This document shows positions 2,108 to 21,297 of a stretch of DNA of 21,297 bases, one piece after another (position 1 is the first letter of the stretch; each line of letters begins with the position of its first letter). The position numbers were made by a program, and so were the translations under genes. Source of the DNA: Halobacteriales archaeon QH_10_67_13 (GTDB taxonomy: Archaea > Halobacteriota > Halobacteria > Halobacteriales > Haloarculaceae). The notes below the pieces were generated by a model. That model saw only the letters and a list, made by a program, of their open reading frames with translations, was not told where the DNA came from and did no database searches. The DNA is taken from contig PXQL01000084.1 of the NCBI GenBank assembly GCA_003021335.1, positions 6,229 to 27,525 of the forward strand, given 5' to 3'.

Positions 2108-3032
2108 CGGCGAGCACCCCGAGCAGTCGGTCGTTTTCCTCGGGCAGCCGGATCGCCACCCGGACGTGGCTGTCGAGCCCCCGGAACGTACGGGCGTCCC
2201 GGAGCGCGAGCCCGGCAGACTCCGCGGTCGCGAGCAGGCCGTCGGGGTTCTCGAGCTTGAGCAGGAGGTACGGCGCCTCGGAGGGGGCGACGTCGATCCG
2301 CTCGCGCTGATCGAGTGCGGCGGCGACGCGCTCGCGTTCCCGTTGCACCCGCCGGCGGGTCTCGGCAACGGCGAGCCGCTCGCCGAGTTCACCGGTCGCG
2401 ACCGCGTATCCCGCCCGGAGCCCCGGTAGCCCGAACAGCTTCGTCAGCGACCGGGCCACGACGACCCCGTCGGTGCCGGCGAGCGAGAGTCGGTCGGTGA
2501 ACCCGAGAAAGGCCTCGTCGACGAGCACGACCGTACCGGCGTCTCGACACCGTCCGACGAACGAACGCAGCGCGGCGTCGTCGTAGGCGGTGCCGGTCGG
2601 ATTGTTCGGGTGACAGACCACCGCCATCGCGTGTGGTTCCGGATCGGCACCGAACAGGTCGTCGTGAGGACGGTAGACCGGCTCTCCGCCCTGGAGTCGC
2701 ACCTCGCGGGCGTACTCTCCGAAGCTCGGGACCGGAAGCAGGACCGAGTCGCCGGCGGCCACCGTCGTCGCGATCGCGAGCCGGATCGCAGCGAGCCCGC
2801 CGGCGGTCGGGATGACCGCGGCCGGGTCGCAGTCAACGGCTGCGGCCGCGGCCCGACGGAACGCCCGGGGTTCGTCCGGGTAGCGCTGGGCGCGCTCCAA
2901 CGCGGCGTCGTAAACCTCCGCGACCCCGTCCGGGGTCCGAGGGTTCGTGTTCGCACTGAAATCGAGCACCGACGGGTCGTCGCTGCCGCCGTGTGGGACC
3001 CGCTCGATCCGGTCGACAGACTCAGGATCCAT
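2100..3032 (-). CDS. cobD: CobD/HisC-like PLP aminotransferase (L-threonine-phosphate decarboxylase type)
   Basis: This 310-residue fold-type I PLP enzyme probably decarboxylates L-threonine-O-phosphate to aminopropanol phosphate, the linker that CbiB attaches to cobyric acid. Visible motifs are FSANTNP at 25-31, HPNNPTG at 141-147, VDEAF at 171-175 and SLTKLFGLPGLRAGY at 195-209, whose Lys198 should form the Schiff base. The ATG at 3032 overlaps the end of cobY by 11 nt. After GELGERLA (to about residue 221) the chain jumps straight to AETRRRVQRER. Relatives normally carry about 25 more residues there (a segment with an aromatic/Thr-Pro pattern), so an in-frame loss near 2361-2375 is suspected. 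The same fold includes HisC, but the operon context favours the cobalamin role. Confidence 0.85.
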   Translation of the reverse strand: MDPESVDRIERVPHGGSDDPSVLDFSANTNPRTPDGVAEVYDAALERAQRYPDEPRAFRRAAAAAVDCDPAAVIPTAGGLAAIRLAIATTVAAGDSVLLPVPSFGEYAREVRLQGGEPVYRPHDDLFGADPEPHAMAVVCHPNNPTGTAYDDAALRSFVGRCRDAGTVVLVDEAFLGFTDRLSLAGTDGVVVARSLTKLFGLPGLRAGYAVATGELGERLAVAETRRRVQRERERVAAALDQRERIDVAPSEAPYLLLKLENPDGLLATAESAGLALRDARTFRGLDSHVRVAIRLPEENDRLLGVLAGG

Positions 3033-3516
3033 CTTCGTCCTCCGTCCGCCCCAAGAGTCGCTCGGCGACCGCGGCGTCCGCGCGCCGGTTCACGTTGACG
3101 GCGTACCGCGCGTCGTAGGAGATCCGGATCTCGTCTGCGTCGTCGGCGACGACGTTGACCCCAGCCGGGACGACTGACCGCCCGTCGCGCTCGGTCGAAC
3201 GGTCGTAGCTCACGCCGAGGGCCGATTTTAGCGCCGCCGGGACGTACACGGCGAGCGAGCCCCGGCGCGCGTTGAGCACCCGATCGACGGCCGCGGCGTC
3301 GAGCAGCGGGAGGTCGGCGGCGACGGTCAGGGCGGGCGTCGAGACCCGATCGAGGGCGTAAGTTAGGTCGGCGACGTAGCCCTCTCCCGGCGCCGCGATA
3401 CGCTCGACGCCCCGCTCGCGGAGGTGCGCGCTGGTCGCCGGGGCCTGGGGGGAGGTCACCGCTCGAATCTCTCCGACCCCGCTGCCTTCGAGCGCGGCGA
3501 GCACGCGATCGACCAT
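3022..3516 (-). CDS. cobY: Adenosylcobinamide-phosphate guanylyltransferase CobY, N-terminus missing
   Basis: CobY is the archaeal enzyme that activates adenosylcobinamide phosphate with GTP to AdoCbi-GDP. The 164 residues here begin at MVDRVLAALEG and match the family from the middle of the Rossmann domain on: DLTYALDRV, VAADLPLLDA at about 83-92, PAGVNVV, and a C-terminal YAVNVN. CobY proteins normally have about 30-40 more residues at the front containing the GTP-binding motif of the form GGxGTR. Those are absent, and the ATG at 3516-3514 is only an internal methionine of the family. Immediately upstream the sequence is already the C-terminus of CobS, so the missing DNA would have held the end of cobS and the start of cobY. 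As written the protein should not bind GTP. Confidence 0.85.
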   Translation of the reverse strand: MVDRVLAALEGSGVGEIRAVTSPQAPATSAHLRERGVERIAAPGEGYVADLTYALDRVSTPALTVAADLPLLDAAAVDRVLNARRGSLAVYVPAALKSALGVSYDRSTERDGRSVVPAGVNVVADDADEIRISYDARYAVNVNRRADAAVAERLLGRTEDEDGS

Positions 3517-3520
3517 CGCA

Positions 3521-4249
3521 CGCGATCACCCCCGCGTGGAGCCCGGCCAGCCGGGCGAGTTCGTTGCTCGCACCGAATACGTCGCCGCTCACGCCCCCCA
3601 ACAGTCGACGGGCGAGCGCGAGCGTGCCTCCGGCGGTCGCGAGCGCCGCCACCAGTCCCACCGCAGCGGCTGGGTGCGGCCAGGTGAACGCGGCCGCCGG
3701 CGCGGCTATCGCGACAGAGCCGACGGCCGCGAGCCGACCCGATCCCTCGGTCACCCGGGCGCCGAGCCCGTCGTGGCGCGCGGTCCCGAGCCCCGCGAGG
3801 ACGCCGATACCGGCCTTCGCACCGACCTCTGTGGCGACGACCAGCCCCAGCGCCGCGAGCGGTAACTCCGCCAGCGAGAGCCCGGCCAGCCCCAGCCCCA
3901 CCACGGCGAGGCCCACGGCGAGCGCACCGCCGACGCCGACCGCAGTGTCTTTCATCACGGCGGCGCGGTCGTCGGGCCCGCCGTGGACGACCAGCGCGTC
4001 GCCCACGTCTGCGAGGCCGTCGAGGTGAGCGATCCCGGTGACGAGATACAGCCACGCGACGAACCCGAACGCGGCTGTCGGCGCCGGAACCGGCAGCGCG
4101 AGCGGGAGCGCCACCAGTCCCCCGACGAGTGCGCCCGCCACCGGAAAGACGAGCGGCCTCGCTCGGAACGCGTCCCAGGCGCGCTCGTCGGTGCCGACCG
4201 GGAGTCGAGAAAAAAAGCCCAGCGCACCCCGGAGCGCCGTCACCACCAC
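3521..4249 (-). CDS. cobS: Adenosylcobinamide-GDP ribazoletransferase (cobalamin synthase) CobS, stop codon lost
   Basis: CobS is an integral membrane enzyme joining AdoCbi-GDP with alpha-ribazole (phosphate). About 243 residues match: TALRGALGFFSRLPVG at the start, HLDGLADVGDAL (metal-binding HxDGxxD-type motif) near 75-86, KDTAVGVGGAL, and LGGVSGDVFGASNELAR near the end, set in long hydrophobic helices. Three tandem GTG codons (4249, 4246, 4243) overlap the cbiB stop; I chose the first because the family reads M-x-x-TALRGAL. After GVIA at 3521 the frame runs directly into cobY sequence in another register, so the usual final residues and stop are missing. Without a stop the frame stays open for about another 1.1 kb of nonsense. 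Confidence 0.88.
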
Positions 4250-5187
4250 GGTATCGCCTCCCAGAGTCCGGCGGCGAGCCAGACACAGACGCCGGCGGCG
4301 GCGATTGCCAGCACGCCGGCCGCCCGCACGACCTGGAGGCCGCGACGGGCGTGGTCGTCGGTCGGCAGCTCCGAGGCCGGGTTGAGGGCGTACCGATCGG
4401 GCTTGCGGAGCTGCACGCCCAGCGCCCCGGCGAGCGTCGCCATCGGCCAGCCCGCGTTCGGGGAGGCCGGGGCACGCGCCCAGCGGCCGGCCGCGATCAG
4501 CACGGACGGCGTCTGGGCCGTGGCGGCGATCAGCCCGGCCGTGAGTCGCGCGGGCACGTACATCACGGCGTCGTCTAGACGGGCGCTCGCCCACCCCAGC
4601 GGCTTCTCCCGGTACCCGAACATCGAATCGAGCGTGTTGACACCCTTGACCCACGCCGCCGCTCCGACCGCGACCGGAACCGAGATCGCCGCCCCGGCGA
4701 CGAAGGCGGCGAGCGGCGCCACGAGTCCGTCCGAGAGGTTCTCGGCGAGGCTCTCGACGACGCCGCTCCGAAGCTCGCCCGCCGACAGCCCGTCCGTGTC
4801 CCGCCCGACGAGCGCGCGGATCGGTCGGGTCGGATCGTCCCCGTCGCTTTCGATGGCGACGAGAGTCTCCTCGGCGACCCCGAGTAGCATCCGCAGGCTG
4901 ACGGCGGTAAACAGCAGGCCGCCCGCGAGCGCGACCCCAACCGCCCCCGGAGCGAGCGCCACGGGGACGGCGTAGACCGCCGCGAACCCGAGCGGAGCAC
5001 AGAGTGCCACGACCACTCCGACCGCTCGGGGGCGTTGCCAGTCCCGATCGAACGGGGTCACCGCCGCGCCGAAACGCGCGACCGGGTGGAGCCGCTCGGG
5101 GGGCTCTCCGAGTGCGGCCTCGAGAGCGACCGCGACCGCGAGCGCCCCTACGGCTGGGGGAACGGTGGACCCGGCGACCGGGCTCAC
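4240..5187 (-). CDS. cbiB: Adenosylcobinamide-phosphate synthase CbiB
   Basis: CbiB is a membrane protein that condenses cobyric acid with aminopropanol (phosphate) to give cobinamide (phosphate). Signatures are LGEPPERLHPV near the start, ESLAENLSDGLVAP, NTLDSMFGYREKPLGWASARLDD, and SPNAGWPMATLAGALGV followed by LRKPDRYALNP. Several hydrophobic segments are evident and length is normal. Two starts are possible. A TTG at 5226 would make 328 residues. The GTG at 5187-5185 makes 315 and is preceded at 8 nt by GGAGG, so I prefer it. It would follow a leader of about 30 nt from the GTATTTGTC box at 5241-5249. This is the first gene of the cobalamin operon, and its stop overlaps cobS. Confidence 0.93.
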   Translation of the reverse strand: MSPVAGSTVPPAVGALAVAVALEAALGEPPERLHPVARFGAAVTPFDRDWQRPRAVGVVVALCAPLGFAAVYAVPVALAPGAVGVALAGGLLFTAVSLRMLLGVAEETLVAIESDGDDPTRPIRALVGRDTDGLSAGELRSGVVESLAENLSDGLVAPLAAFVAGAAISVPVAVGAAAWVKGVNTLDSMFGYREKPLGWASARLDDAVMYVPARLTAGLIAATAQTPSVLIAAGRWARAPASPNAGWPMATLAGALGVQLRKPDRYALNPASELPTDDHARRGLQVVRAAGVLAIAAAGVCVWLAAGLWEAIPWW

Positions 5188-5240
5188 CGACTCGTCCTCC
5201 CGGTTCGCGCTGGTGTCATTGCCCAAATCTGCGTCGCGAG

Positions 5241-5249
5241 GACAAATAC
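5241..5249 (-). promoter_or_regulatory. Candidate TATA/BRE element of the cobalamin operon
   Basis: On the minus strand this reads GTATTTGTC, preceded by purine-rich GAAAGT (BRE-like). Transcription would start about 25 bp downstream, near 5220, giving a leader of about 30 nt with a GGAGG before the GTG of cbiB at 5187. The same nine bases occur in front of the adjacent regulator gene (6106-6114). Confidence 0.5.
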
Positions 5250-5276
5250 ACTTTCGCTACCGAAGACGCAGTTGTC

Positions 5277-6083
5277 TCACGCGGCTAGATCGAGGACCTC
5301 GTGGTCGATCTCGCGCTCGCGGAGAAGATCCGTCTGTGCCGAGAGCCGGTCGGCGACCACGAGCGCGAACACGTCCAGCCCGCGGGTCGCGGCCTCGGCG
5401 ACGGCCTCGATCGTCCCGAACCGGATGTCGGGATCGAGGTCGGCTCGGCGAGCGGCGGCGACGGCCTCGACCCCGGTAACCGCCACCAGGGCCGCCGACT
5501 CTGCGCCGGCGGCGACCGTCGTCGGATCGGTGGCGCCGCTGCCGCCGTTGCGAATCACCGGGACCGAGCCGACGGTGACGGTGCCGGGATCGAGCTCGAC
5601 CAGCCCCTCGAAGTCGGTGATCCCGACATCCTGGCCGGCCGCGGCGTCGGTGACCGCGACTGCCGTTGCCCCCTCGGAGTCGTCGGGGTCCGCGCGGAGA
5701 TAGCCCGCCCGCATCCGCATCGCGACGCGGTCGCCCTCCTCGATCGGGGCGGCGGCGATCGCGCTCTCGACCTCGATCTGTTCGATGACCTCGCCGGCCA
5801 CGTGATCGACGTACGCCTCCAGCCCGTCGGTCCGGGTGATGAGCCAGTCGACGCCCTCCTTTGTCGTCTTGTATCGGCCGCGTCCCTCGGCCTCGACGAA
5901 CCTGCTCTCGATCAACTCGCCGAGGTGGTTGCTCACCGCCTGCGGGGTGACGCCGACGGCGTTGGCGATCTCCCGCTGGCTGACTGCCGGCTGGTGTTGG
6001 GCGATCTGGACCAGGATCTGGTACTGGGTCGCCTCGCGCTTGCTCCGGAGCACGGCGGCTCGCTCGGCCGGCTCGTCTCCCAT
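5277..6083 (-). CDS. Winged-helix (MarR/ArsR-like) transcriptional regulator upstream of the cobalamin operon
   Basis: This 268-residue protein has an N-terminal helix-turn-helix: YQILVQIAQHQPAVSQREIA then VGVTPQAVSNHLGELIE at roughly residues 20-55, a wing with GRGRYKTTKEGVDWL, and a linker helix. The C-terminal ~150 residues form an alpha/beta domain of unknown function, ending in FALVVADRLSAQTDLLRER. I recognise it only as a conserved haloarchaeal HTH protein with a domain of unknown function, commonly labelled MarR-like. The ATG at 6083 is supported by a TATA-like box 23-31 bp upstream, implying a leaderless message. Its stop lies about 90 nt before cbiB on the same strand, so it is a good candidate regulator of the cobalamin operon and possibly of itself. 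This role is inferred from position and the shared promoter motif only. Confidence 0.85.
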   Translation of the reverse strand: MGDEPAERAAVLRSKREATQYQILVQIAQHQPAVSQREIANAVGVTPQAVSNHLGELIESRFVEAEGRGRYKTTKEGVDWLITRTDGLEAYVDHVAGEVIEQIEVESAIAAAPIEEGDRVAMRMRAGYLRADPDDSEGATAVAVTDAAAGQDVGITDFEGLVELDPGTVTVGSVPVIRNGGSGATDPTTVAAGAESAALVAVTGVEAVAAARRADLDPDIRFGTIEAVAEAATRGLDVFALVVADRLSAQTDLLREREIDHEVLDLAA

Positions 6084-6105
6084 CACCCGATTCAGGCGGC
6101 GGAAA

Positions 6106-6114
6106 GACAAATAC
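6106..6114 (-). promoter_or_regulatory. Candidate TATA element of the regulator gene
   Basis: On the minus strand this reads GTATTTGTC, centred about 27 bp before the ATG at 6083, the expected spacing for a leaderless haloarchaeal transcript. It is identical over nine bases to the element before cbiB. Confidence 0.5.
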
Positions 6115-6170
6115 GTTTGTGCTCGAGGGCGGTCGAGGTGGCCCACGGGCGTGAAACCGACGGCCGGCGG

Positions 6171-6563
6171 TCAGGCCGCGTCCTCGACTATGCTCGCGAA
6201 GGCGACGTTCTCGCGGACGTCCTCGATCCGGACGGTGGGCTCGTCGCCGGGGCGGGTCCCGGGGACGATCACGACGTACCCGCGCTCGACTTTCGCGATG
6301 CCGTCCCCCTGGTCGCCCAGCGACTCGACAGTAACCTCCCTGACCTCCCCCTCGTCGACCGGCGGCGCCGGCGGACCGTCGGCAGTCGGCGTCTCGTCGG
6401 TCGCCTCGGCCCCGCTTGGTAACACTGCGACGCGGTAGGTTCCCCCCGGCTGAACCACCCCGTGATCGACCTCTCTATCCGGGAGCTCGACGACGAACCG
6501 ACCGTCCCGCTCCTCGACCGTCGCGGTAAACAGACTCTTAAGCGAATCGTCGATCTGAACCAT
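6171..6563 (-). CDS. TRAM domain-containing protein
   Basis: This 130-residue protein has a C-terminal TRAM domain, a small OB-like RNA-binding beta barrel. It starts at about residue 68 with PPVDEGEVREVTVESLGDQG, continues DGIAKVERGYVVIVPGTRPG, and ends with VRIEDVRENVAFASIVE. The N-terminal ~50 residues (DDSLKSLFTATVEERDGRFV and following beta strands) match a conserved haloarchaeal extension, joined to the TRAM domain by a low-complexity Pro/Ala/Thr linker. TRAM proteins bind RNA and have been proposed as archaeal RNA chaperones. The ATG at 6563 is the only plausible start. It is divergent from sppA across 115 bp. I see no well-placed TATA box. It appears complete. Confidence 0.88.
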   Translation of the reverse strand: MVQIDDSLKSLFTATVEERDGRFVVELPDREVDHGVVQPGGTYRVAVLPSGAEATDETPTADGPPAPPVDEGEVREVTVESLGDQGDGIAKVERGYVVIVPGTRPGDEPTVRIEDVRENVAFASIVEDAA

Positions 6564-6678
6564 CGATCAAAATACGGTCCCATGGGGACTTAGCAGTTTG
6601 GGGGATCTGACGGTCCCGTTACCGCCGGGCTCCGAGCCCGTGCCAAGGGTTTTCAGTTCCCGACGGCACACAGAATGT

Positions 6679-7608
6679 ATGTCGAATGTGCGTTCGCTCG
6701 GCAGACTCGCGGTCGTACTGATCGGGACCGGCCTCGCGGTCGGCGTCGGAATCGGGGTGGTCTGGGGGGTGCCAGCCTTTACCGAGCTGAGCACGCTGGA
6801 TGCGGTCGTCGTCGCGGCGGTCGGGGCCGCCGGCGTTGGACTCGCCGGCCGGTTCGCGACGGACCTGTTCCCGGCCTACAACGTCGCGGAGGTCGAGGTC
6901 GGGGACGTGATCACCCGCGACGGTGCTGCCGGCCCGCTCCCGGGATCCGGCGGCGCCTCGGCCGACGAGATCGTCGAGCAGATCGAGCGGGCCGACGCCG
7001 ACGACAGCGCACAGGGGCTGATCGTGAAGCTCAACACGCCCGGCGGCGAGGTCGTCCCGAGCGAGGATATTCGCCGGGCTGCAGCGGAGTTCGACGGGCC
7101 GACGGTCGCCTACGCCGAGGACATCGCCGCCAGCGGCGGCTACTGGATCGCGAGCGGTTGCGACGAGTTTCACGCCCGGGAGACCAGCCTCGTCGGGAGC
7201 ATCGGTGTCAACGGCACGCAGCTCGGCCGGACCGGTCTGGCCGAGAAGGCCGGCCTCGAGTACCGGCGGTTCGTCGCCGGCGAGTACAAGGATTCGCCCT
7301 CGCCGTGGCGCGAGCTCGAGGATCGCAGAGAGCTCGAGGAGGCGTTCGTCCGGGACACCGAGGCCCGAGTGTACATCGGCGAGGAAGCCGCCGAGAACGG
7401 ACTGGTCGACGCCTGCGGCCCGCGGCCGGCGATGGAAGCCCGGCTCGCGGACCGGCTCGGCGTCGATGAGCTCCGGGTCGAGACCTTCGAACCGCAGCGC
7501 GGGGTCACCGACCGGCTCGGCGCCGGCGCCCGGTCGGTCGCGTACGCACTCGGAGCCGGCGCGGCGAGCGCGCTGCTCGGCGACGACGGTCCGCGGATCC
7601 GAACCTGA
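6679..7608 (+). CDS. sppA: Signal peptide peptidase SppA-like membrane serine protease (S49 family)
   Basis: This 309-residue protein has two N-terminal transmembrane helices (about residues 10-32 and 40-60) followed by an extracytoplasmic S49 protease domain. The core reads LIVKLNTPGGEVVPSEDIRR at 115-133, AEDIAASGGYWIAS at 146-159 with the presumed nucleophile Ser152, and LVGSIGV, then GEYKD with the presumed general base Lys204. The Ser-Lys spacing of 52 fits archaeal SppA. Between RELEDRRELEE and AFVRDTEARVYIGEEA (about 215-223) the family normally has some 25-30 more residues, so an in-frame loss near 7321-7345 is suspected. The catalytic dyad remains. The ATG at 6679 follows a weak TTTTCAG element about 25 bp upstream. 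An earlier TTG would add an Arg/Pro-rich leader that does not fit. Confidence 0.87.
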   Translation: MSNVRSLGRLAVVLIGTGLAVGVGIGVVWGVPAFTELSTLDAVVVAAVGAAGVGLAGRFATDLFPAYNVAEVEVGDVITRDGAAGPLPGSGGASADEIVEQIERADADDSAQGLIVKLNTPGGEVVPSEDIRRAAAEFDGPTVAYAEDIAASGGYWIASGCDEFHARETSLVGSIGVNGTQLGRTGLAEKAGLEYRRFVAGEYKDSPSPWRELEDRRELEEAFVRDTEARVYIGEEAAENGLVDACGPRPAMEARLADRLGVDELRVETFEPQRGVTDRLGAGARSVAYALGAGAASALLGDDGPRIRT

Positions 7609-7613
7609 AGCCG

Positions 7614-7654
7614 GGTCGGTGCGTCCCGAAGACGGGCGCTCGGCGCCACCGACC
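7614..7654. terminator. Inverted repeat between convergent genes, possible terminator
   Basis: GGTCGGTG at 7614-7621 pairs perfectly with CACCGACC at 7647-7654, with smaller GC hairpins between the arms. It lies between the convergent ends of sppA (7608) and the histidine kinase (7697). No U-rich tract follows, so a terminator role is only a guess. Confidence 0.3.
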
Positions 7655-7696
7655 GTCGACGGTCATATGTGGGCCGAGCGGACGGGCGCGACGGAC

Positions 7697-9247
7697 TCAC
7701 CCGCCGTGCAGCCTGGGAGAGTTCTCCGAGCGGATCCGGACGCCGGAGACGACGAGCCGAACCCCCTCCTGGTAGTCCGAGTCGATCCGGACCGACCAGC
7801 CGTGGACTCGGGCGAACGCCCGGGCGTTCGGAAGCTTCATGCCGGACTTCACGGTGCCGGCGTCATTCCGGCAGGCGAAGACAAAGGCGTTGAGTAGTAG
7901 CTCCCGCAGCCGCCCGGGATCTGCCTCGAGCGTGGCGTCGTCGGCGATCTCGAGCTCGACCTCGCCCGTGTCCGCGATCCACCAGGCGTCGGTGACGGCC
8001 TCCCGGAGCTCGACGGACTCGAGCCGGTCGACGGTCTGTCCGTACTGTGCGAGCGTCGTGAAATCGTCCACCCGATCGGCGATCCGTTCGTTCGCCTCCG
8101 TCGCGGCGTCGATCGAATCGGACGCCACTGTCCCCGAGTCGGTCCGGTCGGCGGCCATCGCCAGCCGCCAGTCGATGATCTGGATCAGGTTGCGGAACTC
8201 GTGAGCGAGCGCGCTCGCGAGCTCCTCGAGCTGTTCGTTGTGCCGGGAGAGCTCCCGTCGCCGGCGCTCGGTGCTCGTCACGTCCGAGAATACGAGCGCG
8301 CGCCCGCCGGACTCGCCGAGTTGAACGCTGGTCTCCGAGACCAGGTAATAACGGTCCTCCCCGTCGACGCGGCGCTCGACGATCGGCTCGTCGTCGTCGG
8401 TGGCAGCTGCGACCCGCGGGAGAACGTCTACGAGCGCCGTCCCGCGGGCGCTGGCGATCCCGGGAAAGAGCCGCTCGGCCGGGACCGTGTAGTCTCTGAC
8501 CTGCCCGTCCCCGTCGAGGAACACAACTGCTTCCCCGTCGGTTTTGGGGGCCGCCAGGAACCGCTGCTCGTAGACGTACAGCGCGGTCACCGCAAACGCC
8601 GCGACGCCGATGGGCGCGTAACTCACGCTGACGATCCCGGGGACCGTCGCGCTGAGAACGTCGAGTCCCGCCGGGAGCCCGACGACGGCGGTCAACAGAC
8701 CCAGCGGCCGCACGTCGTAGCCCGCCCGGACGTACATATCGAACAGTGCGAACACCGCCGTTGCCGCCAACGAGTAAGAGATACCGGTGACGATCCAGTG
8801 AAGCGGGCCGAGCTCGATCGCCATGTGGGTAAACGGGGTCATCTCCTCGCCGACGGTAAAATACAGCCGGTGGATCGGGTTGGTGATCTTCGCGGCCGTG
8901 ACCACCAGAAACAGGGCCACGCCGACCCGCCGCACGCTCGGATTCCGGTGGTACGACCGGTTCGTGTACGCCGAGGCGAAGTACAGCCAGGCTCCGACGG
9001 CCGCGAACCCGAGGACCAGCCCGAGGGTGTAGATTGGCTCTCGGAGCGGATCGGGAGCAACGAAAAACAGCGCCTGGAGCAGACTCCAGACTCCGGTGGT
9101 CGCCAGCAGCCAGACGAGTCCCGTCCGGACCTCACCGTCGTCGATTCGGCTGGCCCGGACCGCCGCGGCGGTCGCGATGAGTCCCGTGAGCGCGAATCCG
9201 GCGACGTAGGCGACCGCGACGACGGTGGTCTGGAGCGAGACCGACAT
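7697..9247 (-). CDS. Sensor histidine kinase with 7TM N-terminal region, ATPase domain partly missing
   Basis: This 516-residue protein has about seven hydrophobic helices over residues 5-228, like the haloarchaeal histidine-kinase 7TM sensor module. A PAS-like segment spans about 236-325 (VVFLDGDGQVRDYTVPAERL). The phosphoacceptor H349 lies in ALAHEFRNLIQIIDWRL. The ATP-binding domain starts normally, with the N-box Asn453 in RELLLNAFVFACRND, but after AGTV (466) jumps to KSGMKLPNARAFARVHGW, the G2-box region. The G1 box (DxGxG) and F box, about 35 residues, are absent, so as written it should not bind ATP. It lies 46 bp downstream of hsp20 on the same strand and may be co-transcribed. No response regulator is adjacent. 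Confidence 0.85.
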   Translation of the reverse strand: MSVSLQTTVVAVAYVAGFALTGLIATAAAVRASRIDDGEVRTGLVWLLATTGVWSLLQALFFVAPDPLREPIYTLGLVLGFAAVGAWLYFASAYTNRSYHRNPSVRRVGVALFLVVTAAKITNPIHRLYFTVGEEMTPFTHMAIELGPLHWIVTGISYSLAATAVFALFDMYVRAGYDVRPLGLLTAVVGLPAGLDVLSATVPGIVSVSYAPIGVAAFAVTALYVYEQRFLAAPKTDGEAVVFLDGDGQVRDYTVPAERLFPGIASARGTALVDVLPRVAAATDDDEPIVERRVDGEDRYYLVSETSVQLGESGGRALVFSDVTSTERRRRELSRHNEQLEELASALAHEFRNLIQIIDWRLAMAADRTDSGTVASDSIDAATEANERIADRVDDFTTLAQYGQTVDRLESVELREAVTDAWWIADTGEVELEIADDATLEADPGRLRELLLNAFVFACRNDAGTVKSGMKLPNARAFARVHGWSVRIDSDYQEGVRLVVSGVRIRSENSPRLHGG

Positions 9248-9293
9248 CTACCAGACAGGTTCGCCGCCCGCCGACAAAACTCTTCTCAGACGG

Positions 9294-9680
9294 TTACTCG
9301 ATCGCGATCTCCGTCCCCTCGTCGTCGCCGGAGCGTTTCGCGAGCTTGACGGTGAGCACGCCCCGCTCATATCGGGCGGTCGCCTCGGCAGGGTCGACGG
9401 CGGCGGGCAGGGTCAGGCTGCGATCCAGCGACCGGTGGGTGCGCTCCCCACGCACCCGGCGACCGTCGGGGTCCGTCGGCCCGTCGGCGACGATCCGAAG
9501 AGTGCGGTCCTCGACCAGAGAAATGTCGATCCCCTCGGCGGACCGCCCCGGAAGGTCGACCGCGACGATAAGCGTCTCGCCCGCGTCGTAGAGATCCACC
9601 GGCGGCTCCGCCTCGTCGGCCGCGAGAAACTGGTCGACGAACTGTTCGAGCTCCGCGAGCGGATCGTCGTCCTGTGCCAT
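9294..9680 (-). CDS. Hsp20/alpha-crystallin family small heat-shock protein
   Basis: This 128-residue protein has a short acidic N-terminus (MAQDDDPLAELEQFVDQFLA) and then an alpha-crystallin domain. PPVDLYDAGETLIVAVDLPG opens the domain, ISLVEDRTLRIVADG forms central strands, and GVLTVKLAKRSG carries the typical A-x-x-x-G-V-L-T-V motif (ARYERGVLTVKL). It is expected to act as an ATP-independent holdase. The ATG at 9680 is the natural start, since the longer frame adds Arg-rich residues unlike the family. It is divergent from the methylaspartate operon over 248 bp and upstream of the histidine kinase on the same strand. I see no strong TATA box at the expected distance. Confidence 0.9.
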   Translation of the reverse strand: MAQDDDPLAELEQFVDQFLAADEAEPPVDLYDAGETLIVAVDLPGRSAEGIDISLVEDRTLRIVADGPTDPDGRRVRGERTHRSLDRSLTLPAAVDPAEATARYERGVLTVKLAKRSGDDEGTEIAIE

Positions 9681-9747
9681 ACTGAGCAGTACGTCCCCGG
9701 CGCCCGAAAGTTGACCGATCCCTGTCTTGACCCGGCGCGGCGGTCGT

Positions 9748-9764
9748 GTGGGAGTCGATCCCAC
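9748..9764. repeat. Short perfect inverted repeat in the hsp20-mamA intergenic region
   Basis: GTGGGA (9748-9753) and TCCCAC (9759-9764) form a 6-bp inverted repeat with a 5-nt spacer. It lies about 70 bp upstream of hsp20 and next to an A+T-rich stretch (9766-9793) that holds TATA-like sequence on both strands. It may be a regulatory site or chance. Confidence 0.3.
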
Positions 9765-9776
9765 GATTGATCATTA

Positions 9777-9791
9777 ACTTTTATTATAGAT
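9777..9791 (+). promoter_or_regulatory. A+T-rich upstream element, possible distal promoter of the methylaspartate operon
   Basis: ACTTTTATTATAGAT stands out in very G+C-rich DNA and contains a TATTATA core. A start about 25 bp downstream would give a leader of over 100 nt to mamA. Its complement also contains TTAATG-type sequence that could serve hsp20. A second, better placed TATA box exists at 9891. Confidence 0.3.
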
Positions 9792-9867
9792 CGGGTGCTA
9801 TAGACACGCGTTGATGTTTCCCAACGCCCCCCGCTCGGACGGACGCCCGCTCCAGTGTATTACGACG

Positions 9868-9891
9868 AGTGTCGATAGGTTTTTCGACACT
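9868..9891. promoter_or_regulatory. Candidate operator: perfect 8-bp inverted repeat abutting the mamA TATA box
   Basis: AGTGTCGA (9868-9875) and TCGACACT (9884-9891) are exact reverse complements separated by 8 bp. The right arm touches the TATTATAA box at 9891, where the BRE and TFB would sit. A dimeric regulator bound here could block or recruit initiation of the methylaspartate operon. Confidence 0.5.
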
Positions 9892-9898: not shown

Positions 9899-9928
9899 CC
9901 GAGACGGAAGACCAAATCTAACAAGCAG

Positions 9929-10372: not shown

Positions 10373-10376
10373 TCCG

Positions 10377-13646: not shown

Positions 13647-15124
13647 CCGCGCCAGACCTCGACGGCGGCCTTCCCGAGCGGATCGGCGATGGACTACCGG
13701 TCGTCGATCCCGCGAGCGCCGCCGAGACGATCGGGGACGGGGCGACGGTTGCGGTCTCGGGGTTTGGCAGTGTCGGCGACCCCAAAGCCGTGCCGCGGGC
13801 GATCGCGCGGGCGGCTGAAGCCGGCGAGCGTAACCCGTCGCTGACAGTCGTCTCCGGAGGCAGCGTCGGCGATCCGATCGACACCACGTTAGTCGAGGCC
13901 GGCGGGATTTACCGGCGGTACCCGTTCGTCGCGACCGACGCAGCGCGGGCGGCGGCAAACGACCGCTCGATGGCCTTTGCCGACCGCGGCATCGCCGGGC
14001 TGAGCGACGAGGTCCGGTTCGGGCGGGTCGCCGATCCCGACCTCGCGGTGGTCGAGGCGGTCGCGGTCGGGCCGGACTGGCTGATTCCCTCGACCTCGGT
14101 CGGCCAGACCCCCGCGTACGTCCGGGCCGCCGAGGAGCTGATCGTCGAGGTTAACGCTGCACAGCCGCTCGAACTCGCCCGGTTTCACGATGTCGTCGTC
14201 CGCGATCCGCCGCCGGACCGGGGGCCGATCGGGCTCGCGGGGCCGGGTGAGCGGATCGGCGGCCCGGCAGTCTCGTTCGCGCCGGAGAAGCTCCAAGCGG
14301 TTGTGCGGACCGACGAGCGCGACGACCCCTACGAGTTCCGCGAGCCGACCGCGGCCGATCGGGCAATCGCGGCGAATCTCACGGACTTTCTCGAACGCGA
14401 GCGCGACCGTGATCCGGTCGTTGGAGCGGCGCCGACGCTGCAGTTCGGCGTCGGGAGCCTCGGCAACGCCTTGATGCGAGCGCTCGCGGACTCGGCGCTC
14501 GCCGACGGCCGGCTCCGGTACTTCGGCGAGGTGATCCAGGACGGGCTGCTCGATCTGCTCGAGGCCGGCGATCTCGAGGCCGCGAGTGCGACCTCGCTTG
14601 CACTCTCTGAGGCGGGCCAGGACCGGCTGTTCGCCGATCCCGAGGGATACGCAGAGAACGTGGTGCTCCGGCCCTCTGAGCTGTCGAACGCGCCCGCGCT
14701 GATCGACCGGTTCGGCGTCGTCGCGGTCAACAGCGCCATCGAACTCGACCTGTACGGCCACGTCAACTCCACACACATCAGTGGCTCGCGGCTGGTCAGC
14801 GGCGTCGGCGGGAGCGTCGATTTCAACCGCAACGCACACTTAACCGTCGTTGCGACGCCGGCCACCGCCGGCGGCGGCGAGGTCTCGACGGTCGTCCCGA
14901 TGGTGACACACACCGATCACACGGAACACGATATCGACGCGGTCGTGACCGAACACGGCGTCGCCGACCTGCGCGGGCTGGCGCCGGTCGAGCGCGCCGA
15001 GGCGATAATCGAGTGTGCCGCGCCGGAGTTTCGCGCGGATCTCCGGGCGTACTTGACGCAGGCTCGGACCGCCGGCGGGCACCTGCCGCAGGATCTCGAG
15101 ACCGCATTCAACTGGCGGTCCTGA
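13643..15124 (+). CDS. Acetyl-CoA hydrolase / class I CoA-transferase family protein, candidate mesaconate CoA-transferase
   Basis: This 493-residue two-domain protein belongs to the acetyl-CoA hydrolase / succinyl-CoA:acetate CoA-transferase family. Motifs are VAVSGFGSVGDPKAVP at 36-51 in the first domain, QFGVGSLGNAL at 267-277 (CoA-binding loop), and RYFGEVIQDG at 292-301, where Glu296 lines up with the thioester-forming glutamate of this family. SAIELDLYGHVNS at 364-376 and GVGGSVDFNRNAHL at 387-400 follow. Retention of the glutamate favours CoA transfer over simple hydrolysis. Its ATG overlaps the mch stop by 4 nt, so it is co-translated with the mesaconyl-CoA hydratase. Mesaconate activation is the obvious role, but acetate or propionate CoA handling cannot be excluded. 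Confidence 0.88.
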   Translation: MTAPDLDGGLPERIGDGLPVVDPASAAETIGDGATVAVSGFGSVGDPKAVPRAIARAAEAGERNPSLTVVSGGSVGDPIDTTLVEAGGIYRRYPFVATDAARAAANDRSMAFADRGIAGLSDEVRFGRVADPDLAVVEAVAVGPDWLIPSTSVGQTPAYVRAAEELIVEVNAAQPLELARFHDVVVRDPPPDRGPIGLAGPGERIGGPAVSFAPEKLQAVVRTDERDDPYEFREPTAADRAIAANLTDFLERERDRDPVVGAAPTLQFGVGSLGNALMRALADSALADGRLRYFGEVIQDGLLDLLEAGDLEAASATSLALSEAGQDRLFADPEGYAENVVLRPSELSNAPALIDRFGVVAVNSAIELDLYGHVNSTHISGSRLVSGVGGSVDFNRNAHLTVVATPATAGGGEVSTVVPMVTHTDHTEHDIDAVVTEHGVADLRGLAPVERAEAIIECAAPEFRADLRAYLTQARTAGGHLPQDLETAFNWRS

Positions 15125-15141
15125 CAAGCTGACCGCTCTGA

Positions 15142-15164
15142 CCCCTTCGCGGCCCGCGATGGGG
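15142..15164 (+). terminator. Stem-loop after the methylaspartate operon, possible terminator
   Basis: CCCC-T-TCGCG, loop GCC, CGCGA-T-GGGG gives nine base pairs with one internal T-T mismatch. It starts 18 nt after the stop of the last operon gene and lies between convergent genes. The run after it is only TTCCC, so termination by U-tract is not clear. Confidence 0.4.
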
Positions 15165-15191
15165 TTCCCGGCCGAGTGGGGCGTTAGTTTA

Positions 15192-17171
15192 TCAATCGTC
15201 GGGCTCGCGGGTGAACTCCCGTTCGGCCAGGACGGTGCTGCCGTCGAAAACGACGAACACGCCACGGGGCCGCTCAGCGACCGAGAGGACGACGGCGTCG
15301 TCGGGCTCGACGGTCTCGTAGGTCTCGGCCCAGGGCGTGTGGTTCTCGACGGGGGCGCCGAATACCTCGACGCGGAGCCGCTCGGGGTCGATCGGGTCGC
15401 CGCCGGCGTGGGGGATCGTGAGCTCCTCGGCGCCCTCGTCGTAGCCGATCTCGAAGGTCGCGTCGGGGGTGACGGTGTACTCGTCGACGCGGAACGGTCG
15501 GTCGTCGCCGACCCACTCGACGACAATCCGATCGCCGACAGCGACGTCCACTGCGACGGAATCGCCGTCGGTCAGCCGATCGTACTGGTCTGCGAACTGG
15601 ACCGACGCCGGCTCGTCCTCGCCGGCGAAGCCGATCCGGTAGTTCTCGGCCGGCTGGCGCTCGGAGCCGCGATACGTGATCGTCACGGTTCCGTCCTCGG
15701 GGATGAACTCGAACCGTCCCGGCGGCTCGGCGATAAAGCTGAACACCGACATCGTGATGCCGTAGGCTTCGTCGGCGCGGCTGCGCTCGACGGTCAACGT
15801 GATATCGATCCGATCGCCGTAGCCGACGTCCTCGACGGTAATCGAGTCGCCGGCAGTCAGCCGCTCGCCGACGAGACTCTCAAGATCGGTCTTCTTGTCG
15901 TCTTCGGGCCCGGGTCCGCCACGTTGAAGCGAGAACCTCCTCGCGTCCGCCTCGAACTCCTTGGTGTACGTGATCGTGAGCGCGTCGGCGTCGGGGTCGT
16001 GCTCGCCCTCGAAGGCGTCGCGACCGCTCGCGACCGACCGACCCAGCGGCCGTTCGACGTCGAACTCGGGGTCGAGCCACACGACCTCGACGAGCTGGAA
16101 GGGATCGACGTCGATCTCGAAGCGATCGCCGGGCTCGATGGGCGCCTCGCGGTCGTCCCAGGGCGGGGCGCGTTTTTCGCCGCCGACCCTGAGCTCGACT
16201 CGGGCCGGGTCGACCGGCTCCTCACCGATCTGTTCGAGCACGCCCTTCGAGTCTCTGAAGCGGAATCGTGCGTCCGGAGCGTTGTCCGGCAGCTGCGAGG
16301 GCGGCAGCTGGGTCACGAACGATCCGACGACGGTCCGATCCTCCGGGCCGACCCGCTCGTACTCGACGTCGAGCTCGTCGACGTTACCGCGTTGGTCGTC
16401 GATGATCGTCTCGACGGCCGTCTCGGTGGCCGCCTCCCGATCGACGAAGCGAACCGCGAACTCGACGCGCTGGTCGTACCCGCCGACGAGTCGTCGTCCG
16501 ACGGCGACCCGCTCGACCGAATCGGGGTCCTCGAAGGAGATCCCCTCGGCGTTCGGCGCGAGTCCGATGAAGGTATTATCCTGGATCGGCGCGACGACCG
16601 GTTCGAGCGTGGTACCGATTCCGGCCTCCGGGTCCGCGGCCGCGTCCCGGGCGGCTTCGAGCCCCGCCTCCCAGGGCCCGTCGTTCCGGGCGAAGATCGC
16701 GAATCCGTCCGCGGCGCGAGTGGCGATGTCTCCCGGCGGATCGAGGGCTTCGCCGCCGAACGAGCCGACGGCGACTGCGAGACTCACCGCGGTCTCGTCC
16801 GGGTCGACTGCCACGGCCGCGCGGTCGATCGCCTCGGGGTCGAGCCCGAGCTGTTGGGCGACGAGGGTGGTGTTAGGAACCGCGGGGAGATCGGACTCGG
16901 TTTCGGAACCCTCAGACGGCGGCGCGACGATCCAGAGCGGTCTGATCGACCGATCGCCGACGGTTCGGGGAATCGCACCGAGGACCGTCGCGAGATCTTC
17001 GGACAGACTCGGCTCGCCCGTCCGGTCGCCGTCTGGCTGGTCGTCGGAATCGGTCGCCGGATCCTCGTTCGAGTCGTTTTGTTCGGCCGGCTCCTGTGAG
17101 TCGCTTTCCAGACAGCCGGCGAGGAGGGCTACGCCGCCGATGGCGAGGAGTCGTCGTCGCGTCGGGGCCAT
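15192..17171 (-). CDS. Tat-exported lipoprotein with four tandem beta-rich repeats, function unknown
   Basis: This 659-residue protein begins MAPTRRRLLAIGGVALLAGC: an Arg5-Arg6-Arg7 Tat-like motif, a hydrophobic stretch and a lipobox (Leu17-Ala18-Gly19-Cys20). An Asp/Glu-rich linker follows. Residues about 55-300 form an alpha/beta region with no motif I recognise. Four related units follow at about 300-366, 386-460, 486-555 and 572-645. Each has an aromatic/TI-Y strand pair, an Arg/Leu strand, then a GDxhxVxVxxGDRIxVxW-like ending (h, hydrophobic). The last unit (LTIPHAGGDPIDPERLRV) resembles the C-terminal beta segment of haloarchaeal pilin-type domains. The ATG at 17171 has a TTATT element about 27 bp upstream. 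Surface anchoring is well supported, but the function is not known. Confidence 0.85.
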   Translation of the reverse strand: MAPTRRRLLAIGGVALLAGCLESDSQEPAEQNDSNEDPATDSDDQPDGDRTGEPSLSEDLATVLGAIPRTVGDRSIRPLWIVAPPSEGSETESDLPAVPNTTLVAQQLGLDPEAIDRAAVAVDPDETAVSLAVAVGSFGGEALDPPGDIATRAADGFAIFARNDGPWEAGLEAARDAAADPEAGIGTTLEPVVAPIQDNTFIGLAPNAEGISFEDPDSVERVAVGRRLVGGYDQRVEFAVRFVDREAATETAVETIIDDQRGNVDELDVEYERVGPEDRTVVGSFVTQLPPSQLPDNAPDARFRFRDSKGVLEQIGEEPVDPARVELRVGGEKRAPPWDDREAPIEPGDRFEIDVDPFQLVEVVWLDPEFDVERPLGRSVASGRDAFEGEHDPDADALTITYTKEFEADARRFSLQRGGPGPEDDKKTDLESLVGERLTAGDSITVEDVGYGDRIDITLTVERSRADEAYGITMSVFSFIAEPPGRFEFIPEDGTVTITYRGSERQPAENYRIGFAGEDEPASVQFADQYDRLTDGDSVAVDVAVGDRIVVEWVGDDRPFRVDEYTVTPDATFEIGYDEGAEELTIPHAGGDPIDPERLRVEVFGAPVENHTPWAETYETVEPDDAVVLSVAERPRGVFVVFDGSTVLAEREFTREPDD

Positions 17172-17425
17172 ACCCGTCGGTTCCCTCGAACCCGAATAAG
17201 GGCGTCGAGAGATTTCCCAGACAGAAACGCGGCGTGTCACGCCTCCGTCAACTGGATCGCCTCGCCGACGAGCGCGACGTCACCCGGCCGCGCGTGGCCG
17301 GAGAGAGCCCGCGAGTCGGCCCGGCCGGGGCGACGACGCGGTCTGCCGGGATCGAACCCCGCCCGCGAGACGGCGGGTGAAACATCCGGGAGCTACGGTC
17401 CAGCTGACAGAGAGCCGACGGTGGA
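17172..17425. other. Intergenic stretch of 254 bp with GC hairpins, no convincing gene
   Basis: It holds the lipoprotein promoter region at its left end. CCCGCC (17358-17363) pairs with GGCGGG (17372-17377). A T-loop-like string (minus strand GGGGTTCGATCCC, 17347-17359) is present, but no cloverleaf can be built around it. A minus-strand frame ending at 17237 finishes GDVALVGEAIQLTEA, which looks protein-like but has no start or recognised family. It may be the remnant of a gene. Confidence 0.4.
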
Positions 17426-17962
17426 TCACCCCTGGTAGGGGTGATACTCCATGCCCTTGTGTTTGAGCTCGTTGCGCTTCTGTTCCAAAAACGAGTAGAC
17501 GGCCCCGTGAGGAGCCCCCTCGAGCAGCATCTCGACGGCTTCCCTGACCGCCTCGACCTGGCGGGGACCGCCGATGGCGCCGAGCGTCGAGCCGTAGATC
17601 ACGACCGAGGCGCCGGTGAGTTCCTCCATGAGCTCGCGGGTGCGGCCGTCCTCGCCGATGAGCCGGCCTTTCTTACGCCGGAGGTCCGACCCGTTGCGCG
17701 CGGCCGCGTCGATGTCGATCAGCTCGAACATCATCATCTCGTCGTCGAGCAGGCGCAGGGCCTCCTCGGGGGCGAACCCGCGGCCGATCGCCTTCACGAT
17801 GTCGGGGCCCTTGAGCCCGGTGACCGGGTCGCCGATCTTCTCGACGCGCACGGTGCCCGACTCCGAGTCGATGTTGAGGCGAACCTCCGCGCGACGCTCG
17901 ATCTCGCGCATCGTCTCGCCGCCACGACCGATGAGAACGCCGATCCGGTCGTCGGGGACCGT
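17426..17962 (-). CDS. KH-domain RNA-binding protein (archaeal Dim2/PNO1-like), N-terminus joined to rio1
   Basis: This is the archaeal relative of the ribosome assembly factor Pno1/Dim2. First KH domain: TVPDDRIGVLIGRGGETMRE with the GxxG loop. Then come VKAIGRGFAPEEALRLL and a second KH-like region, KKGRLIGEDGRTRELMEELT and GASVVIYGSTLGAIGGPRQV, ending HGAVYSFLEQKRNELKH. The family usually opens with a few residues such as M-x-x-V before VPxDRIGVLIG. Here those residues and the start codon are missing and the reading goes directly into the Rio1 sequence in another frame. The first in-frame ATG is at 17911, which would delete the first KH core. Rio1 and this KH gene are neighbours in many haloarchaea, both acting on the small ribosomal subunit. 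Confidence 0.85.
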   Translation of the reverse strand, partial: TVPDDRIGVLIGRGGETMREIERRAEVRLNIDSESGTVRVEKIGDPVTGLKGPDIVKAIGRGFAPEEALRLLDDEMMMFELIDIDAAARNGSDLRRKKGRLIGEDGRTRELMEELTGASVVIYGSTLGAIGGPRQVEAVREAVEMLLEGAPHGAVYSFLEQKRNELKHKGMEYHPYQG

Positions 17963-17963
17963 C

Positions 17964-18674
17964 CTCGAGGAACTCGTCGCTGTTGGGGTGATGGACCGTC
18001 ACCGCCTGGCCGACGTCGATTAGGTACAGTCGTGAGTCGTCGACGACGACGTTGTACTCTGAGAGGTCGCCGTGGACCATCCCGGCGTCGTACAGCCGGC
18101 GCATGTACTCTCTGATTACCTCGAAGGCAGTGTTCGGGTTCTCAAGCTGCACCTCGGCGAGGCGCCTGGCCCGGCCCGCGTCGGTGCGCAGATACTTCAT
18201 AATCAGGACGTTGCGCTCGACCGCGAGCGGTCGGGGCGCCCGGACCCCTGCCGCCCGGGCGCGCTTGAGATTAGCAAACTCCTTTTTGACCCAGCCGATC
18301 ACGACCGCCTTCTTGTCGTTTGCCACCTCCTCGAACCGGGGATCGCCTTCCAAGTACTCGCCCATCTCGCGGAAGTCCGAGGCGTTGATCCGGTAGATCT
18401 TGACTGCGACGGTCGGCTCCTCGCCGCCGAGCTCGGCCGCGGCGGTTTCCCCGCCAAGCGCCGTGTAGACGAGGGCGCCGTAGGTCGCCTCGTCGAACAC
18501 CGACTCTTCGAGTTTGAACTGGTCTGCGTCGGTGATCCGCTCGCGAAACTGGCTGAACTCCCGGTCGCGCTCGCGGGCGATCCGGTCGGCCTCGGTGTCC
18601 GAGTAATCGATCGAGGTCCACTCGTCGCCCGGCGGCGCCTGGTCTGTGTCGAGCAGGCCGTAATCCTCGTCCAT
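17964..18674 (-). CDS. rio1: Rio1-type serine protein kinase, two segments missing
   Basis: This 237-residue recognisable part is an atypical kinase of 40S/30S maturation. It has an N-terminal acidic helix region and DQFKLEESVFDEATYGA at 51-67, then jumps to LVYTALGG. The Rio1 nucleotide loop STGKEANVY belongs between them but is absent apart from VY (in-frame loss of about 22 residues near 18468-18473). Present are VAVKIYRI (Lys92), VRAPRPLAVERNVLIMKYL, the catalytic VHGDLSEYN (Asp203, Asn208) and LIDVGQAV (metal Asp220). After HHPNSDEFLE (to 17964) the C-terminal ~50 residues are missing and the frame runs on into the KH gene as nonsense to 17673. As written it cannot be functional. The ATG at 18674 has TCTTTTGTCC about 30 bp upstream. 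Confidence 0.88.
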
Positions 18675-18730
18675 CTGTCCTGTCGTAGGTGGTCGAGGGA
18701 CAAAAGACTGGCCGGAAAAAAGCCGGACGG

Positions 18731-18736
18731 TTTATG
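18731..18736 (+). promoter_or_regulatory. TATA box of the uvrD/rep-like gene
   Basis: TTTATG is centred about 30 bp before the ATG at 18763, fitting a leaderless or very short-leader transcript. The same 88-bp divergent region must also hold the rio1 promoter. Confidence 0.5.
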
Positions 18737-18762
18737 ACGCCGGACCGAATAGTAAGGCCTTA

Positions 18763-20420
18763 ATGGCTGATTCGGCCGATGTCACACGCCTGTTCGGTGG
18801 TCCGGGGAGCGGGAAGACGACGGCGCTGCTCGACCGCGTCGAGAAGCTGTTAGACGATTCAGACATCGAGGTCCGGGACGTACTCGTCGTCTCGTACACG
18901 CGAGCGGCCGCCTCGGAGATCCGCGAGCGACTCGCGGACCGCCTGGAAGTGTCCCCCCGCGCGCTCCGGGGTAACGTCTCGACGATGCACGCGAAGGCCT
19001 ACGACCTGCTCGATCTCTCGCGCAGCGACGTCGTCGGTGAGTCCGAGAAGGAGGAGTTCTGTGACGACTACGGGATCGAGTACGAGCGCCGGGACGTCGG
19101 GGACTGGTACGAGGTGCCGTTCAAGTGGAACGACGAGGAGGTCCGGCTGCCCCCAGAAATCGACGACCGGGCCCAGACTGGCAACAAGTACACCCCCACC
19201 TGGCCAAGCGACGACGACCGGCTGGACGTCCCCGAGGCGATCCGGGCCTGGCGGGCCTGGAAAGGCGAACAGGGGCTGGTCGGGTTCGCGGACATGCTCG
19301 AGCGGGTCAAAGAGCGGTCGCTCGTGCCCGGGATCGATTACCTGGTGATCGACGAGTTCCAGGACATTACGACCCTGCAGTATGCCGTCTACGCGGAGTG
19401 GCGGCCTCACACCGAGCGGGTGCTGATCGCCGGTGACGACGACCAGGTCGTCTACGCCTGGCAGGGGGCAGACCCCGACCTGCTGCTCGACGAGGATGTC
19501 GACGAGGATGTGGTCCTGCCGAACTCCTACCGGCTGCCTTCCCGGATCCTCAACGCCGTCAACCAGGAGGTGAGCCACATCGAGAAACGCCAGGAGAAAG
19601 ACCTCAAGCCGCGCAAGGAGGGCGGCAGCGTCGAGGCGATCCGAAACCGATCGATGCTGGATCTCTCTCGGGAGGCCACCCGGACCGTCGAAGAGACCGA
19701 CGAGACGGTGATGGTGCTGTTCCGGGCCCGGTACCAGATGTTCCAGTTTATCGACGAGTTCATCGACCAGGGTATCCCGTTCCAGTGTCTGACCGACCAG
19801 CGGATGTGGACCGACCGGCTCGCCCAGTACGTCAGCGGGATCGAGTCCCTCGGGCCTTAGAGGACCGCGAGGAAGCCGCCGACGTCGACGACATCGCCGA
19901 GTTCGACGTCGAGCCGGAGCTGATCCGCGAGCACGCCCCGTTCGCGCCCGATCCGCCGGCGGCCGCAGACATGCTCCGGAAGGTCACGAGCTTTCAGGAA
20001 CGCAGCGTGCGGGCGTACTTCGCCGGCCCGTACCGCGGAATGGCCCACGGTCGGGTACGCCTGGGGACGATCCACTCGGCGAAGGGCCGCGAGGCCGATC
20101 ACGTCTTCGTTGCCACCGACCTCACCGAGAAGGTCGTCGAGCAGATGGCCGCGACCATCGATCAGACCGACGCGGCCGTGCCGGGTGACGCGGAGTTCAC
20201 CAAAACGACCAGCCCCGTGCCGACGGTCACCGACAACGAGCGACGGGTGTTCTACGTCGGGATGTCCCGCGCCAGAGAGCGACTCGTCCTCATGGAGAAC
20301 CTGGTCGACGGCGCGCCGACCCTGCCGATCGACGTCCTGCTCGAGAACGAGCCCGCCGAAACCGACATCGAGGAGCTGCTTGAACGGGTGAGCGAGCCGC
20401 CGGTGGCGGGGACACAGTAA
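18763..20420 (+). pseudogene. UvrD/Rep (SF1A) DNA helicase, disrupted by two losses
   Basis: The protein is a haloarchaeal UvrD/PcrA/Rep-type helicase. Frame 1 (18763-19860) carries Walker A GGPGSGKTT (12-20), motif Ia VVSYTRAAASEIRERL, motif II VIDEFQD (195-201), GDDDQVVYAWQGAD (224-237) and PNSYRLPSRILNAV. At about 19084-19090, DDYGIEYE jumps to RRDVGDWYEVPF; relatives have some 35 residues more there (in-frame). At about 19850-19860 the frame ends in ESLGP-stop, while the helicase resumes in another frame with ALEDREEAADVDDIAEF. It continues through TIHSAKGREADHVFV (motif V) and VFYVGMSRARERL (motif VI) to the stop at 20420. The missing piece there is probably about 40 residues. If the sequence is correct, the gene yields only a truncated ATPase half. 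Confidence 0.87.
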
Positions 20421-20463
20421 CGCCCGGGACAAAGGTTAACTCCCGATCGATCCTTCCGCCGGT

Positions 20464-20842
20464 ATGAGCGACGACCAGACGCTGTTCGAGCGGATCGTTG
20501 CGGGTGAGATCCCGAGTCACGCGGTCTACGAGGACGAGACCACCTACGCCTTCCTGGACGTGAACCCGCTTGCCCCGGGACACACGCTGGTGATTCCCAA
20601 AGAGCCCTACGAGCGACTCGACGAGGTACCTCCCTCTGTCGCAGGCGATCTGTTCGCGGCGATCGCCGAGCTCACGCCGGCGATTGAGACGGCCGTCGAC
20701 GCCCCCGGGAGATCTCCACTGGCACTTCGTCCCCCGGTTCGAGGACGACGGCGCCGGGGCGATCCACGCCCTGTTCGACGGCGTCGAGATGGACGACGAG
20801 GAACTCGCTGCGACGGCCGCTGAGATCCGCGAGCACCAGTAG
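20464..20842 (+). pseudogene. HIT-family nucleotide hydrolase/transferase, frame broken by an internal loss
   Basis: The N-terminal part (from ATG 20464) is a typical HIT protein: FERIVAGEIPSHAVYEDETT, AFLDVNPLAPGHTLVIPKEP, PPSVAGDLFAAIAELTPAIE. Around 20704-20713 the reading switches: the original frame becomes Arg/Pro-rich and ends at 20823. Another frame gives DLHWHFVPRFEDDGAGAIHA down to the stop at 20842, which is the HIT histidine motif and C-terminus. The usual GQxVxH stretch before the histidines (about 20 residues) is missing. HIT proteins cleave nucleotide phosphoanhydrides or phosphoramidates. It starts 43 nt after uvrD and is probably co-transcribed. It is another of the small losses in this window. 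Confidence 0.85.
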
Positions 20843-20893
20843 CCGGCCGACACGTCGGCACGTCCGGACAGTGCGATGACACGATCCATTACG

Positions 20894-20899
20894 TTTATA
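20894..20899 (+). promoter_or_regulatory. TATA box of a probable small RNA
   Basis: TTTATA in the context ACGTTTATACCC is the best match to the haloarchaeal consensus in the window. A start about 25-27 bp downstream falls at 20920-20925, exactly at the foot of the first hairpin. Confidence 0.55.
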
Positions 20900-20921
20900 C
20901 CCTCGTGTGTCATTGTATCAC

Positions 20922-21010
20922 GTGACGCTTCGTCTGGAGGGCCGAAGCGTCAGCGGGGACCAATTCAGGGCGGCAAGCACCCCTTTTTGGGGTGCTTTCC
21001 TTTCCGTTTG
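20922..21010 (+). ncRNA. Candidate two-hairpin small RNA
   Basis: Downstream of a strong TATA box the DNA contains two perfect stem-loops. Hairpin 1 is TGACGCTTCG (20923-20932) with CGAAGCGTCA (20943-20952) and a 10-nt loop. Hairpin 2 is AAGCACCCC (20975-20983) with GGGGTGCTT (20989-20997) and a TTTTT loop. A 22-nt unpaired linker lies between them and a pyrimidine-rich TTCCTTTCC run follows. This layout fits an independently transcribed RNA of roughly 80-90 nt ending at hairpin 2. It is too short for SRP or RNase P RNA and shows no tRNA or box C/D structure. A short frame from a GTG at 20907 overlaps it but has no family similarity. Ends are estimates. Confidence 0.45.
20975..20997 (+). terminator. 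Strong hairpin with T-rich downstream run
   Basis: A 9-bp perfect stem with a 5-T loop is followed by TTCCTTTCCGTTTG. It probably ends the candidate small RNA and may also separate it from the convergent DapA-like gene. Confidence 0.45.
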
Positions 21011-21039
21011 CACGAGCGATCAGCGGCGAGTACGGGGGT

Positions 21040-21297
21040 TCAGTGAACCCTATCGAGTAGCTCCTCGATCGTCGCCGTCGCCTCGGCGTCGGGTTCGGTG
21101 AACGGGGCACGCGGGTGACCGGCCGGGAGGCTGCGCTGGCGCATCGCCCACTTCAACCCGGGGACGCCGAACCGGCTCGTGATCGCGTGGTTCAGTTGGA
21201 CGAGTGCCTCGTTGCGCTCCCGGGCCGGGACGCCCCCATCGTCCGACCGCTATCGGCAGTCGCGGAGCTCCCTGCCGATCACTGGTACTCGAAACTC
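21040..21297 (-). pseudogene. DapA-family (DHDPS/NAL/KDG aldolase-type) lyase, C-terminal fragment with an in-frame stop
   Basis: Reading the minus strand toward 21040 gives RERNEALVQLNHAITSRFG, then VPGLKWAMRQRSLPAGHPRA and PFTEPDAEATATIEELLDRV. This is the C-terminal helical region of dihydrodipicolinate-synthase-like TIM-barrel lyases or aldolases. Upstream in the same frame a TAG at 21252-21250 interrupts it. The residues beyond (VPVIGRELRDCR) could belong to the preceding helix of the same family, so a segment around the stop may be missing as in other genes here. The gene continues beyond the window edge. The substrate cannot be told from this fragment. Confidence 0.65.

Follow-up and report, generated by a model that had tools for sequence, protein, structure and literature searches.

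Assemblies of metagenomes are known to contain local errors and scaffold joins of the wrong size (Chen et al., 2020; PMC7111523). Multiple displacement amplification (MDA) also produces chimeras; among the rearrangements described by Lasken and Stockwell (2007; PMC1855051), more than 85% were inverted and more than 70% were primed at 2-21 complementary nt. We analysed a window of 21,297 nt, bases 6229-27525 of contig 81 in the draft genome of Halobacteriales archaeon QH_10_67_13 (G000). The draft contains 1,487,707 bases in 116 contigs, with a completeness of 52.1% and a contamination of 0.37%. A run of 43 Ns directly precedes the first base of the window, and the last base of the window is the end of the contig. 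The draft resembles the cases described by Chen et al. (2020) in its incomplete genes, overlaps of k-mer length and N gaps of the wrong size; in those cases the consensus at joins is unsupported, as would be expected in G000 too. Unlike in the errors described there, the joins in G000 are made without Ns and mostly 47-105 nt are lost, as judged from the consensus alone. With the MDA chimeras described in PMC1855051 the draft shares deletions and palindromic joins, as found in drafts from little DNA; it differs from them in that direct losses outnumber strand flips and in the length of the palindromic arms, which is exactly 99 nt.

Missing segments in the window

Each named gene in the window was compared by alignment with the loci of relatives; the genomes searched included 17 further members of the same genus. 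The first-pass annotation had listed ten short losses of roughly 20-40 codons. At nine of these places a stretch is indeed missing relative to members of the genus, and the tenth, at 21250 beside the contig end, was not settled (Table 1). The measured losses are slightly smaller than listed, at 16-35 codons.

Table 1. Junctions in the window at which sequence is missing relative to relatives (L numbers are loci)
Feature	Position	Strand	Missing sequence	Comparison
cobD-like aminotransferase gene (2100-3032)	2371..2372	-	75 nt, in frame	75 columns vs L160, L166, L172, L177
cobS/cobY	3518..3519	-	82 nt: cobS end and cobY N-terminus	82 columns vs four relatives
sppA-like peptidase gene	7329..7330	+	69 nt, in frame	vs L165, L169, L197
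Sensor kinase gene	7848..7849	-	105 nt, in frame	vs L163, L173, L178, L182
rio1/KH	17960..17963	-	Last 35 codons of Rio1 and first five codons of KH	
rio1, internal	18471..18472	-	~69 nt, in frame, ATP-binding loop included	
uvrD-like helicase gene, junction 1	19086..19087	+	90 nt, in frame	8/9 relatives; Ns at this site in the ninth (G007, L185)
uvrD-like helicase gene, junction 2	19852..19853 (about)	+	97 nt, frame shifted into a stop	9/9 relatives
HIT gene	20703..20712 (about)	+	47 nt, frame shifted	47 columns in 6/7 relatives; seventh (L355) has its own gap nearby
DapA-like fragment, end of similarity	21226..21250	-		Relatives' matches stop at ~21226; coding model ends at 21246, leaving 51 nt to the contig end

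Rio1 scores 363.8 bits with the NCBIfam haloarchaeal Rio1 model (cut-off 480) and the cobD-like product 234.3 bits with the CobD model (cut-off 290.55). CobY and SppA also fall below their NCBIfam cut-offs, whereas the two subunits of methylaspartate mutase and the KH protein are above theirs. Residues 1-29 of the relatives' cobY product find no counterpart in the window cobY. The internal loss in rio1 comprises 23 codons (YKLVQDGHIDAFGGPISTGKEAN), as read by eye; MAFFT divided this gap around a lineage-specific insertion. In most relatives of the genus, rio1 and the KH gene do not adjoin.

It had also been claimed that about half of the losses keep the frame and that the methylaspartate operon is spared. 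Five of the eight measured window losses are multiples of three, and so are six of the 14 tabulated across the draft, where one third would be expected (p 0.31). The genes of the operon are full length. The loss-free 10.1 kb, on the other hand, is weak evidence of sparing: its probability is 0.03 for nine uniformly placed points, and 0.08 when 15137-17425, a stretch lacking relatives, is excluded.

Lesions of the same kind elsewhere in the draft

For a wider view of the draft we used a sample of 41 sequences from 40 of the 116 contigs (483,274 bp). Frame switches were called by a codon-usage model that covers all six frames and was trained on the same sequences, a switch being a direct pass to another frame of the same strand with no stop in the first frame within 60 nt. 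The G000 sample has 39 such switches in 483 kb, or 8.1 per 100 kb. There are four in 515 kb (514,775 bp; 0.8 per 100 kb) in 25 named haloarchaeal loci without MAG label (p ~1e-8 for the difference), and none in 100 kb (five stretches) of G008. This distribution is the one expected of assembly error, as the damage is draft-wide, irrespective of gene function and not a property of well-assembled relatives. If any gap of up to 150 nt is allowed, a looser definition, the rate in the named records is 2.3 per 100 kb. The strict rates were 2.0 in G006, 2.6 in G007, 6.2 in G017 and 3.0 in seven named loci that are mostly MAG. The G017 sequences (L339-L343) contain five direct frame switches in 81 kb and two N runs, and may share a milder form of the error. 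Losses that keep the frame or run into a chance stop escape the model, and the actual number of losses therefore exceeds the switch count. The window itself has three switches, compared with 36 in the remaining 462 kb of the sample (p 0.25, no difference).

Comparison with relatives likewise gave more losses than chance would. A looser homology scan, in which 62.5 kb of G000 coding DNA could be compared, found nine losses there and none in 89.9 kb of control, although some of the nine may be natural indels and the rio1, uvrD and HIT losses were overlooked, we think because reverse-frame open reading frames of the relatives were counted as contradictions. A stricter scan returned six G000 rows, which represent four distinct losses (two were listed on both strands), and none in the controls. 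At the base level, 67 nt are missing in L205, 68 nt in L212, 65 and 75 nt in L322 (the latter relative to two relatives), 68 nt in a gene that we read as IMP dehydrogenase (L208) and 68 nt in one that we read as glutamate synthase (L327). Larger segments are also missing by match coordinates, 1.10-1.21 kb at L213:3334 relative to six of six relatives and 692-751 nt in L311 relative to five of five. The 14 tabulated losses, seven of which cluster at 65-69 nt, include neither these two nor the rio1/KH junction; the looser scan's events of 49, 54, 84 and 135 nt are not among them either. The losses are thus not particular to the window, and the same damage runs throughout the sampled draft.

One gene in the sample contains inserts. 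At ~16.1-18.7 kb of L212 (G000:C60), a conserved gene contains inserts of ~1.4 and 1.1 kb, the first of which is matched by G014 and the second by G006; in G004, G008, G010 and G017 the matches are confined to the flanks. As a guess, the inserts could be intein-like.

Assembly marks and the origin of the losses

Two further traces of k-mer assembly and of scaffolding, N runs and 99-nt repeats, are present in the contigs with losses, as expected of assembly error. There are 23 N runs in the sample, and all six measurable gaps are shorter than the sequence of the relatives. A gap of 43 corresponds to 69 nt in four of four relatives. The gap of 231 is 246 too short (six of six relatives), that of 198 is 153-198 too short (four of four) and that of 87, over poorly conserved DNA, is 237-262 too short (seven of seven); the gaps of 10 and 12 are 26 and 12 too short by alignment length with one relative each. 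The sample also has four exact repeats with a length of exactly 99 nt. One of them is a direct repeat at the start of a contig; the other three are inverted, and two of these span an N run. At 3475-3682 and 7913-8269 of L213 (G000:C65), N runs join 99 nt to their own exact reverse complement; these palindromes are a signature of an assembly graph or of chimeras. The fixed length of the repeats is a k-mer signature, as left by a de Bruijn graph.

The missing segments most probably result from local errors in the assembly of a fragmentary draft, and the living organism presumably carries the affected genes intact. Contigs would have come from a de Bruijn assembly with a k-mer overlap of 99 nt. 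They may then have been joined, probably on the basis of read pairs, across small unassembled stretches or gaps estimated at zero or less. The flanks would thereby have been abutted without Ns, and perhaps trimmed as well. We infer this joining mechanism from the losses, their spread, the N gaps and their reduced size, and the 99-nt repeats. Joins through a sequence overlap of at least 10 nt were considered and rejected, as none was found at the junctions by eye. Three observations fit assembly error less well. The few switches in the sister drafts G006, G007 and G017 mean that the error would be strong in G000 alone, the looser definition gives a higher rate in the named records too, and the cluster of sizes at 65-69 nt is not accounted for, although it may help to identify the responsible software step. 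If instead the DNA had been amplified by MDA, from a single cell or low input, deletion chimeras could have become the consensus. The low completeness of the draft and the two L213 gaps at which sequence meets its own reverse complement would be in keeping with this, but a k-mer graph accounts for arms of exactly 99 nt. Rearrangements by MDA should be mostly inverted. Among convergent gene pairs, which the strand-flip count covers, a mid-gene strand flip was found in one of 70 pairs in G000 and in one of 47 in named isolate records, as against 39 same-strand switches in G000. Junction homology appears to be ~0-2 nt by eye, the relatives being too diverged for an exact count. We rejected MDA as the main cause on the strand-flip counts and regard it as unlikely.

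The first-pass annotation had proposed a systematic artefact, with GC-rich hairpins collapsed or skipped during amplification or assembly; such hairpins in the missing segments would have stalled the polymerase, or the assembler would have collapsed them. The class of explanation was right, but the hairpin cause is weakly supported. Lost segments were ranked against stretches drawn at random from the corresponding loci of the relatives, on a scale with 0 as most extreme and 0.5 as chance. Over 11 losses the mean folding rank was 0.35, a slight excess, and the mean GC rank was 0.43, close to chance; the rio1 row in this set is based on a 31-column gap and not on the true segment. The L205 loss has a folding rank of 0.87. 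A run of 69 Ns in the sister draft G007 covers the uvrD segment lost in G000, a failure at one shared site that hairpins could explain; it suggests in any case that assembling this segment from short reads is difficult. Hairpins were rejected as the main cause on the GC and folding ranks, and we consider this explanation unlikely. The annotation had also raised the idea of a genome with real micro-deletions, many short segments having been lost recently or by a programmed process. The losses are present in the consensus and the frame is kept in most of those measured in the window, but frame keeping across the draft is at chance level. Gene decay would be expected to affect dispensable genes and to leave extra stops and small frameshifts. 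The affected genes include core ones (rio1, KH and those read as IMP dehydrogenase and glutamate synthase), the flanks are conserved right to the junctions and the pieces between junctions read open. Among the G000 matches listed (down to ~237 bits, in a draft that is about half complete), the rio1-uvrD region has no second copy. The same lesions occur over the sampled contigs and in conserved enzymes, in a draft with independent assembly faults such as N gaps and repeats of k-mer length. Real deletion was therefore rejected as a cause and is very unlikely, and it is just as unlikely that the sampled cells bore many genome-wide short deletions, mostly of 45-105 nt, from a programmed or catastrophic process; the window offers no biological micro-deletion to investigate. 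Gene losses, frameshifts and the rio1-KH join in G000 are unsafe to interpret, and a simple count of frame switches flags such drafts before biology is inferred.

A conserved intergenic element next to the HIT gene

The window also contains a conserved intergenic element at 20888-21012, with the HIT gene on one side and the DapA-like fragment on the other. It is matched in all eight genus genomes searched, and weaker unannotated copies are found on one Haloarcula plasmid and one Halorubrum plasmid. A search of Rfam gave no match for this element. Its 54-nt core (20923-20976) is identical in all six sequences aligned, the window and five members of the genus. A TTTATA box precedes the core. The hairpin that follows the core shows compensating changes, both partners differing in five of its 34 predicted pairs, with a weak covariation term; the fold z is -2.6. 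The element is a candidate small RNA.
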